From the NCBI GenBank assembly GCA_021157815.1, contig JAGGVT010000031.1, positions 1 through 14,568 on the forward strand: a DNA stretch of 14,568 nt, in the 5' to 3' direction. The notes below the pieces were generated by a model. It saw nothing but the letters and a program-made list of their open reading frames with translations, had not been told where the DNA came from and searched no databases. The stretch is from a bacterium. Its GTDB lineage: Bacteria > JAJVIF01 > JAGGVT01. Positions within the stretch are counted from its first letter, which is position 1; each line of letters begins with the position of its first letter. Position numbers and translations under genes: made by a program. This document shows, in pieces, positions 68-14,366 of the stretch.

Positions 68-210
68 GGATGTCCCAACCATGCAAATAAACACAGTATA
101 AATGAGGGTTTGCAGCATAGTATATTGATAACGTCAGGATTGAAGCATCATGTGGACTGTCCCCTTTTTTTACGGTGGGGCAAATAACCCACACAATTTA
201 TTTAAGCGTT
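68..210. mobile_element. degenerate copy of the 190-bp MITE (copy 1)
   Basis: From about base 71 (TGTCCCAAC) to 210 this stretch aligns base for base, with scattered changes, to the intact copies at 2544-2735 and 14166-14358. Shared blocks include ACAGTATAAATGAGGGTTTG, the CATGTGGACTGTCCCC block and its T-run, and the terminal ACCCACACAATTTATT. The right terminus has decayed: TTTAAGCGTT stands where the intact copies have TTGAAGCGCC. The left arm is missing, interrupted or lies beyond the window. The copy sits upstream of the phosphatase gene. The rest of the 326-base leader (211-326) is AT-rich, and I see no convincing promoter in it. Confidence 0.75.
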
Positions 211-2543: not shown

Positions 2544-2735
2544 GGCTCTTCAATAAATCGTGTGGGTCGAGTTTAGATTGAGTAAAAAAAGGGGACTGTC
2601 CCAACAAAGTGAATAAATACAGTATAAATAAGGGTTTACAGCATAGTATATTTATAACATCAGATTTGAAGCCTCATGTGGACTGTCCCCTTTTTTTACG
2701 GGGGACAAATAACCCACACAATTTATTGAAGCGCC
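2544..2735. mobile_element. intact 192-bp MITE (copy 2)
   Basis: The left end GGCTCTTCAATAAAT and the right end ATTTATTGAAGCGCC are inverted repeats differing at one base. The complementarity continues through GTGTGGGT/ACCCACAC and, after a diverged stretch, through an inner pair (AAAAAAAGGGGAC and its complement before ACGGGGG). The whole element could fold into one long hairpin around an AT-rich centre. It matches copy 3 at 14166-14358 over its full length. No ORF of note is inside, and no clear target duplication flanks it (left CAGCCCGGA, right TTTCTATAT). It separates the phosphatase gene from the Asp23-like gene. Confidence 0.85.
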
Positions 2736-6810: not shown

Positions 6811-6932
6811 GATTCCGGGTCAAGCCCGGAATGACATCCGATTGTCAAGCCTGCAAATTGTCATTCCGGCAAATTGTCATTCCGGCAAATTGTCATTCCG
6901 GCAAATTGTCATTCCGGCGAACGCCGGAATCC
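6811..6932. repeat. inverted repeat element with an internal 16-bp tandem array
   Basis: The left arm (6811-6836, GATTCCGGGTCAAGCCCGG then AATGACA) and the right arm (6907-6932, TGTCATTCCGGCGAACGCC then GGAATCC) are imperfect inverted copies, and each arm is itself a small palindrome. Between them GCAAATTGTCATTCCG is repeated four times without a mismatch (6853-6868, 6869-6884, 6885-6900, 6901-6916); a fifth, decayed unit can be seen at 6837-6852. Elements with this CATTCCGG/CCGGAATG theme are familiar dispersed repeats in many bacteria. It fills the gap between two converging genes. A short ORF reading through it is a translation of the repeat, not a gene. Confidence 0.85.
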
Positions 6933-9475: not shown

Positions 9476-11413
9476 ATGATAAGAATAAATAGAAAACTCA
9501 AGTACCGGCTTTTTTTCATAATGCTTGCGGTGATAATGTCCGGATATGTATGCTCGGCAATCACAACTCCGGCGTATGCGCTCCCCAAAATATACCAGGA
9601 TATAATCAATCAGAAAAAGAAAGAGAGAGCCGAAAAGAAAAAAGAGGAAAAAAAGGAATCAAAGGATAAAGAGAAAGAAAACAAGGAAGAGGATAATGAT
9701 GAACCTGAACGAGGCATGAATCCAATCGTTCGTGAACCCGACCTCGATCCCTATATCGCAATTCACAATCTAAAACTGATTAACACAAGCGGAAACAACG
9801 ATGGCTATTTTGGCATGAATGACAGAGTCGATCTGGAAATATCCTATAAAATCGGTGATTATGAGGGTTTTGATGATGTTCATATCTCATGGTCTGTGAA
9901 AGATCAATCTGGAAATTGGGTTCATCACGACAGCCGTACAGTTCGCCTCAGGCCTGACCGGTATGTTACGGAGCGCATTTCCAATGCTGTTCCGATGAAT
10001 AAACTTCACAACTCATCTGAATTCTCAGTTGAAGTAATGCTTGAGGTCGAGAATAAAACGGCGCGCAAAACAATATGGAATAAAACCAGGGGTGTTAGTG
10101 GCAAAGTGCGTATCCGTGACGCTTACCTGACAACCGAAAGGTCACATAACAGCTATTACCCCGGCTATCCAGCCTCGATATTCTACACGGGCGACCCGTT
10201 CTGGATTGTTATCGAATATGAAGTCACGGGTGATGCCAGAGGCGATGTGGAATTTGAATGCACAATAGACACGCGTTATAATTTCATTCTCTTCCGCGAC
10301 CATTTCAGATCAACCGCGCAGAAAGGCTATAGAACAGTATGCCATCAAGGATGGCTGCCCGATTACCTGCCGTCATCGACATACAGAATGACTCTTAATG
10401 TCAAGGCAAAACATGGAAACTCCACCACATCCACAAGCAGTTCCTACACGATAAAATCATCATCCGAAAAAGGCTATTCATACAGGGATGACTGGGACTA
10501 TGACTACGAAAGGGATTTTTGCCTGAGCAGTGTAATAACATCATCACGTCCCGATGACTGGTTGAGAAAACGATATTTCGATGGCAGCGACAGTATTTTT
10601 CTTATCGCGAAATATAATGTTCACCGTGGTTTTAACGAATTTGTAACGCTTTTGTGGAAAGTCTATGATTCACAGGAGGAATTGATTTACACTGATGAAG
10701 CGCGATACATGTCATCCGCCGACGGCTTTTTCCCCATTAAACTTGAATTCCCGCACAGCCTGCAATCCGGGAGATATTCATATTCGGTCAGTGTCAAAAA
10801 CAAACCTAATAAATCTACCCGTAAAGGCTCATTTACAATTTCAAACTATCCATCCCCCGTTGGCATGGCGAAATTGGGGGATATCGCAGGGACGGATATT
10901 GTTATTCGCGATCCAGATAACCAGACAATTACTTTTGAAATTGACAACCGGTTAACCATGAGTGTTCCGGACGAATGGGATGCCATGTTCCATTACGACA
11001 ACAACCTTCCGCCATTCACATTCCTGCCGACACCTGAAATCACAGGCATGGTCATGGTTAGCGAGTTTAAAAATGTGGACACATCTCATGTGGAAACATC
11101 CTTTGATGACGCTGTCAAACAATATGAGCAATTGGAATCAAAAGCAACGAAAATCGCGGATTCGACTGAACGGAAGGAGATTATCATTGACAGCAGGCAG
11201 TCGCTGATATGTTCATACAAGGGCAGCATCAAGCATCGCGGCGAATATCTAAACGAATACATTGAAAACGTTGATATTCTCGTTATTCAAATCTGGTATC
11301 CGACAGATGACGCAAATTATCTTTATTCCGTAAGGCTGATTACACCTGAGGAACATTCGGATTTGTTATTCGACGTGGCGGAAAAGGTAATTGATATGAT
11401 TCAAATTAATTAG
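9476..11413 (+). CDS. secreted multi-domain beta-rich protein of unknown function
   Basis: 645 residues. A signal peptide (hydrophobic about 12-28, cleavage probably after AYA near residue 36) is followed by a highly charged Lys/Glu segment (about 45-80), likely an extended or helical linker. Three regions (about 85-215, 215-335, 345-460) share the pattern of a beta-sandwich: a GDxI/V strand start, a W-V/W-K strand (ISWSVKDQSGNW; LLWKVYDSQEE) and a closing strand ending GSFTI or SSYTI. They look like diverged tandem Ig-like domains. The last 165 residues (from about 480: MSVPDEWDAM ... VAEKVIDMI) resemble PsbP/DUF1795-type folds, a weak inference. GGAGG at 9463-9467 selects ATG 9476 over ATG 9461. 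I cannot name a function. It is divergently transcribed from the TIGR03790 lipoprotein, so both surface proteins may share regulation. Confidence 0.78.
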   Translation: MIRINRKLKYRLFFIMLAVIMSGYVCSAITTPAYALPKIYQDIINQKKKERAEKKKEEKKESKDKEKENKEEDNDEPERGMNPIVREPDLDPYIAIHNLKLINTSGNNDGYFGMNDRVDLEISYKIGDYEGFDDVHISWSVKDQSGNWVHHDSRTVRLRPDRYVTERISNAVPMNKLHNSSEFSVEVMLEVENKTARKTIWNKTRGVSGKVRIRDAYLTTERSHNSYYPGYPASIFYTGDPFWIVIEYEVTGDARGDVEFECTIDTRYNFILFRDHFRSTAQKGYRTVCHQGWLPDYLPSSTYRMTLNVKAKHGNSTTSTSSSYTIKSSSEKGYSYRDDWDYDYERDFCLSSVITSSRPDDWLRKRYFDGSDSIFLIAKYNVHRGFNEFVTLLWKVYDSQEELIYTDEARYMSSADGFFPIKLEFPHSLQSGRYSYSVSVKNKPNKSTRKGSFTISNYPSPVGMAKLGDIAGTDIVIRDPDNQTITFEIDNRLTMSVPDEWDAMFHYDNNLPPFTFLPTPEITGMVMVSEFKNVDTSHVETSFDDAVKQYEQLESKATKIADSTERKEIIIDSRQSLICSYKGSIKHRGEYLNEYIENVDILVIQIWYPTDDANYLYSVRLITPEEHSDLLFDVAEKVIDMIQIN

Positions 11414-11416
11414 GTT

Positions 11417-11506
11417 GTAGCCCGGGAATCCATTTCCCGGGAAATGCGTGGGAAAAATGAGTGTTAAATTCACGCCAAAACCCCGGGAAATGGATTCCCG
11501 GGCTAC
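11417..11506. repeat. 90-bp element with perfect 25-bp inverted ends
   Basis: The arms 11417-11441 (starting GTAGCCCGGGAATCC) and 11482-11506 (ending GGATTCCCGGGCTAC) are perfect reverse complements. Each arm contains CCCGGGAA and TTCCCGGG, so it can also fold by itself. Inside, GCGTG and CACGC add a third pairing. It starts three bases after the stop codon of the secreted-protein gene and could act as a bidirectional transcription barrier, although it lacks a T-run. It resembles REP/MITE-like sequences dispersed in other genomes. No target duplication is visible. Confidence 0.8.
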
Positions 11507-11662
11507 GGGCAAATTTAAATTCCAAATGTCTCTTTTTAATAAACCAGGTAAAAAATTCCCCTGAAATTGCCGATTCTGATAGAATAGGAGGGCATTTGTA
11601 ATTGAAATCGAACAGGCAGCTTTAAACCGAGTGTTCAAGTGATTTGATTTAGCTGAAAATCA

Positions 11663-12577: not shown

Positions 12578-12631
12578 TTGTGCCTATTCATCTCTGAAAA
12601 ACTTTTTTTTAAGTATGAGTTTAATGCTTAT

Positions 12632-12811
12632 CCTGGGAGCGCTGGTCTCTGACCGGCACTTGAGCAGGTTTACTTAAAGAGAAATAAAGGGAATTTATCG
12701 GACATTGTTGATAAATTCACCTCTTTTCTTTTGGTTTATTGTCTGCTAGATAAACTCTTTTGATTGCTATTAACCTTGTCCAGGTGCCGGTCAGAGACCA
12801 GCGCTCCCAGG
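12632..12811. mobile_element. 180-bp MITE-like element with perfect 28-bp inverted ends
   Basis: The left end 12632-12659 (CCTGGGAGCGCTGGTCTC then TGACCGGCAC) is the exact reverse complement of 12784-12811. The interior is AT-rich and contains a further hairpin: GAATTTATC (12691-12699) pairs with GATAAATTC (12710-12718), with imperfect extension. There is no ORF and no evident target duplication. Together with a second hairpin at 12817-12839 it occupies most of the 339-base gap between the prenyltransferase and the WD40 gene, which converge here. Confidence 0.8.
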
Positions 12812-12816
12812 TTCCG

Positions 12817-12839
12817 GATTTTATCGATATGATAAAATC
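12817..12839. repeat. hairpin downstream of the WD40 gene
   Basis: GATTTTATC (12817-12825) and GATAAAATC (12831-12839) are perfectly complementary around a GATAT loop. It lies about 78 bases beyond the WD40 stop on the minus strand, and directly outside the 180-bp element. It is AU-rich and has no T-run, so it is a weak terminator candidate. Confidence 0.4.
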
Positions 12840-14157: not shown

Positions 14158-14366
14158 AAAAATTTGGCTCTTCAATAAATCGTGTGGGTTGAGTTTTGAT
14201 TGAGTAAAAAAAGGGGACTGTCCCAAACAAGTGAATAAATACAGTATAAATGAGGGTTTGCAGTATGATATATTGAAATCATCAAGTTTGATGCCTCATG
14301 TGGACTATCCCCTTTTTTTACGAGGGTGCAAATTACCCACACAATTTATTGAAGCGCCAAAAATTT
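14158..14366. repeat. candidate 8-bp target duplication flanking MITE copy 3
   Basis: AAAAATTT lies directly before the left end (14158-14165) and directly after the right end (14359-14366) of the MITE. The match is exact and in direct orientation, as expected for a target-site duplication. The sequence is low in complexity and AT-rich, so chance cannot be excluded. Confidence 0.55.
14166..14358. mobile_element. intact 193-bp MITE (copy 3)
   Basis: Full-length relative of the element at 2544-2735 with the same ends, GGCTCTTCAATAAAT and ATTTATTGAAGCGCC, and the same inner complementary blocks around the two T/A runs. The two copies differ by scattered substitutions and one or two single-base gaps. 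It contains no ORF, so any movement needs a transposase from elsewhere. It lies just upstream of the WD40 promoter region. Confidence 0.88.

Follow-up and report, generated by a model that had tools for sequence, protein, structure and literature searches.

The repeated element in the window, a stretch of 14,568 nucleotides that constitutes contig C115 of a 3.22-Mb, 221-contig and 90.9%-complete assembly (the bin), is best explained as a non-autonomous MITE of the ISL3 family that would be mobilised in trans by an ISL3 DDE transposase, a reading to which we assign a probability of about 0.93. The element is short (105–221 bp), present at about 70 places in its own genome and bounded by inverted 24-nt ends, and it carries no transposase gene, since its length does not suffice for one. 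The classification as an ISL3-type MITE follows from the combination of 8-bp target-site duplications with two ends that both match ISL3 ends in register.

Copies in the window and across the genome

The most informative copy in the window is copy 3 (14166–14358, forward strand, 193 bp), which is complete and, as the preliminary description had stated, bordered by exact 8-bp direct repeats, AAAAATTT at 14158–14165 and again at 14359–14366, both read directly and recovered when the flanks were tabulated. Its inverted ends are imperfect and at least 24 nt long. The left end, GGCTCTTCAATAAATCGTGTGGGT (14166–14189, forward strand), and the right end, GGCGCTTCAATAAATTGTGTGGGT (14335–14358, reverse strand), which was found by the genome pattern search, both fit the ISL3 end profile described below. 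Copy 2 (2544–2735, forward strand, 192 bp) is likewise complete with intact ends, and its flanks, AGCCCGGA and TTTCTATA, show no target duplication; it lies 27 bp past the stop codon of a 730-aa ORF and 43 bp ahead of the next ORF. Copy 1 (about 69–210, forward strand) lacks the entire left end and has a mutated right end (AACGCTTAAATAAATTGTG...), and is for these reasons a truncated relic. All three copies that had initially been proposed do exist, but only copies 2 and 3 are complete. The proposal that the ends start with GGCTCTTC applies to the left end only, whereas the right end usually starts with GGCGCTTC.

Searching the genome with the 24-nt left end and allowing up to 3 mismatches yielded 51 + 54 = 105 matches and none for the reversed control pattern, a repeat family far beyond chance. 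From these and from similarity matches, for which the surroundings were fetched, 51 complete copies were delimited, 17 of them measuring 189–193 bp and 32 measuring 209–213 bp, plus single copies of 221 bp and 105 bp. Only one end is left at about 20 further sites, where the copy is in most cases cut by a contig end and in the others truncated; the repeats are probably behind some of the contig breaks of the bin. The 105-bp form has its two end regions directly joined at GGGGACTGTCCCC and could have arisen from the 190-bp form by losing the DNA between two GGACTGTCCC repeats. Identity between copies averages 88–89%, and nearest neighbours are mostly 92–98% alike. Because copy 3 shares 98% identity with the copy at C169:18817, some transposition of the MITE was probably recent.

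The window contains other repeats as well. At 11408–11515, an inverted pair of the palindromic motif GTAGCCCGGGAATCCATTTCCCGGG represents a second, REP-like repeat family, whose arm recurs at roughly 40–50 genome sites, a figure that refers to arm matches only, since the spacer of the query was incorrect. A 50-nt inverted repeat (GGGAGCGCTGGTCTCTGACCGGCAC...) at 12623–12820, with arms that are 82% complementary and 98 nt apart and with a second hairpin inside, may be another mobile or palindromic element. At 6841–6920, about five units of the 16-nt sequence ATTGTCATTCCGGCAA stand in tandem at the start of a forward-strand ORF.

Target-site duplications and insertion preference

Exact direct repeats of 8 bp flank 24 of the 51 delimited copies, compared to a mean of 0.6 when the right flanks were shuffled, and exact repeats of 5–7 or 9–12 bp were found at none of them. 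Allowing one mismatch, 34 copies have flanks that match at 7 or 8 of 8 positions, where 1,000 shuffles gave 1.5 such copies on average and never more than 5. These duplications demonstrate that the MITE has transposed, and they bear out the preliminary description, which had treated the 8-bp duplication at copy 3 as a candidate and had held that a lack of 8-bp repeats at other copies would speak against its reading; with 24 exact repeats at precisely this length, the MITE reading survives. At 13 copies, the flanks match at fewer than 6 of 8 positions and no duplication can be recognised, and a search among copies without duplications for swapped flanks, as left by recombination, found none. 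At one complete copy (L013, C122:3185–3395), the flanks resemble inverted rather than direct repeats (CCATTTTTT and AAAAAATGG, with a one-base offset).

The exact duplications have an A+T content of 90%, compared to 65% in the flanks just outside and 56% in the window, and the target preference is strongly A+T-rich, with a left half leaning towards A and a right half leaning towards T. The target preference of ISL3 elements has been called unknown, with A+T-rich regions suggested (PMC5395568, 2017). The 24 exact duplications suffice to describe it for this ISL3-type insertion.

Ends of ISL3 type and competing origins

As reference for the ends, pairs of ends with 8-bp repeats were sought around ISL3 transposase loci in other genomes and on annotated plasmids. 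Eight ISL3 elements could be delimited (L091, L100 and L101 in other genomes, together with ISKox3, ISRsp8 and elements from Polaromonas, Paraburkholderia and Vibrio), and loci without clean delimitation (ISEc53, IS1165 and those from Enterococcus, Pseudomonas and Mesorhizobium) were left out. The proteins of L091 and L100 belong to NF033550, the 'ISL3 family transposase' of NCBIfam (E-values 5e-92 and 1e-88), and a full 8/8 duplication was present in six of the eight elements, the exceptions being the Vibrio element and ISRsp8. The consensus end of the eight is GGTTCTTCCGCAATTTGAGTGGGT. Across the 16 ends, the profile has an invariant GG, then TCTT conserved at 75–94% and a C at 69%, a loosely conserved middle, and GTGG at 75–100%. 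Both MITE ends score within the range of the ISL3 ends and in register. Since a GG start was either demanded or preferred when the elements were delimited, the profile is biased towards these two bases, which were therefore held fixed in the composition-preserving shuffles; of 200,000 such shuffles, none reached the scores of the MITE ends. The MITE thus has ends that agree in register with those of transposase-bearing ISL3 elements, as had been suggested from the window alone: it shares with these insertion sequences the GGNTCTTC...GTGG pattern and the 8-bp duplications, which are usually A+T-rich in the ISL3 elements, but they are about 1.3–1.7 kb long and contain a transposase gene, whereas the MITE has none. 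ISL3 elements have been described as having imperfect repeats of 15–39 bp and 8-bp direct repeats (PMC5395568).

The long hairpin into which the MITE strand folds (z -7.5) and the location of 48 of the 51 copies between genes, as judged by a simple ORF call, would also suit a REP-like or terminator-like palindromic repeat that spread without transposition. However, such a repeat would hardly have precise ends together with 8-bp target duplications, which two thirds of the copies show, and genes neighbouring the copies show no bias towards convergence (9 convergent, 8 divergent and 26 co-directional arrangements), nor is there a terminator-like site around copy 2, so that we consider this origin extremely improbable. 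A position bias or terminator role of the MITE likewise finds no support in the gene arrangement or the surroundings of copy 2. The copies have no orientation preference, one of them breaks a 442-aa frame according to the same ORF call, and an Rfam search of the window gave no match.

Duplications of 8 bp are not exclusive to ISL3, and the bin contains no ISL3 transposase, both of which would allow for a MITE of another 8-bp-duplicating DDE family, such as IS1595, with ends that came to resemble those of ISL3 by convergence. Yet an IS1595 transposase (PF12762) is not found in the bin either, and the ends fit the ISL3 profile along all of their 24 nt, with the inner GTGG block included; this fit refers to the ISL3 profile alone, as no IS1595 element could be delimited in the fetched loci. 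We regard an origin from another DDE family as very unlikely, and the MITE was very probably moved by an ISL3-family transposase, as judged from its ends and duplications. According to this ISL3 reading, the MITE would retain only the two ends recognised by the transposase, each consisting of about 24 bp of inverted repeat and about 30 bp of subterminal sequence, with about 90–110 bp of non-coding DNA as interior. Provided in trans, an ISL3 DDE transposase would bind both ends, excise the MITE, presumably by a cut-and-paste route, and insert it where A+T-rich and mostly intergenic DNA has been cut with a stagger of 8 bp between the strands; gap repair would then produce the 8-bp duplication.

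Source of the transposase and place among known MITEs

The preliminary description had suggested that a resident ISL3-type transposase may mobilise the element, and this part of it stands less firmly than the ISL3-type ends on which it was built. Neither an ISL3 transposase nor a fragment of one was found in the bin with PF01610, NF033550 (considered up to an E-value of 1) or PF14690 (nothing above the cut-off), and inspection of every unpaired end revealed no full-length IS there. Given that the bin is incomplete, this weakens the claim of a resident transposase but not the assignment of the ends. At the edge of contig C157, a left end has 56 nt in common with the MITE before it passes into different DNA with TTGACA, a spacer of 17 nt, AAAGAT, GGGAGG and ATG TGT CAA CAA, where the contig ends. 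This corresponds to a promoter-like site, a ribosome-binding site and a start codon whose reading frame is cut off by the contig edge after four codons. Relics of the interior of this stub, 79–83% identical and sharing the left end, are present on C36 and C41. The stub is probably the cut-off 5' end of a putative autonomous element, and its appearance is what would be expected of a multicopy autonomous IS that had dropped out of a short-read bin. It is plausible that the transposase is resident in this organism, and the mobilising enzyme may be, or may have been, encoded by the element to which the stub belongs. Next to the C41 relic of this ISL3-type left end of the putative autonomous element lies a short helix-turn-helix frame (L088, C41:16811–19885, at about 1130–1530), which by eye resembles the start of an IS630-type transposase.

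Outside this genome, the MITE end was absent from 58 other genomes, only three of which are of the same class. GTDB species genomes gave no match to a close end pattern and two isolated single sites (L119 and L120) to a relaxed one, about the number expected by chance (2 by our own estimate), neither of which has an inverted partner or a transposase in its vicinity. Neither plasmids (by blastn) nor IMG/VR (with the exact pattern) contained a match, and a complete IS with the ends of the MITE was found in none of the 58 genomes, the GTDB species genomes or IMG/VR. We consider it rather unlikely that the family is confined to an isolated lineage which lost or never kept an ISL3 transposase of its own, and that it is moved only by incoming ISL3 elements or is now a fossil.

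A close counterpart has been described in Microcystis aeruginosa PCC 7806, a MITE of 187 nt that has GGCTCTTCG ends as well as 8-nt repeats and was assigned to ISL3; the same genome contains full-length ISL3 elements whose ends match (PMC11448079). Compared by description, both MITEs are non-autonomous, of near-equal length and able to form a stem-loop, with 8-nt direct repeats and with ends that start with GGCTCTTC and match ISL3 elements. Microcystis is a different organism, however, and it has ISL3 elements with matching ends, whereas none is assembled in the present genome. Because both an ISL3-type MITE and the traits of ISL3 elements have been published (PMC11448079, PMC5395568), the present family is of an already known kind. 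The case is clear, though ordinary, and leaves the existing knowledge of MITEs unchanged, and it adds a well-populated ISL3-type MITE family, with its about 70 sites, from a poorly sampled bacterial lineage.
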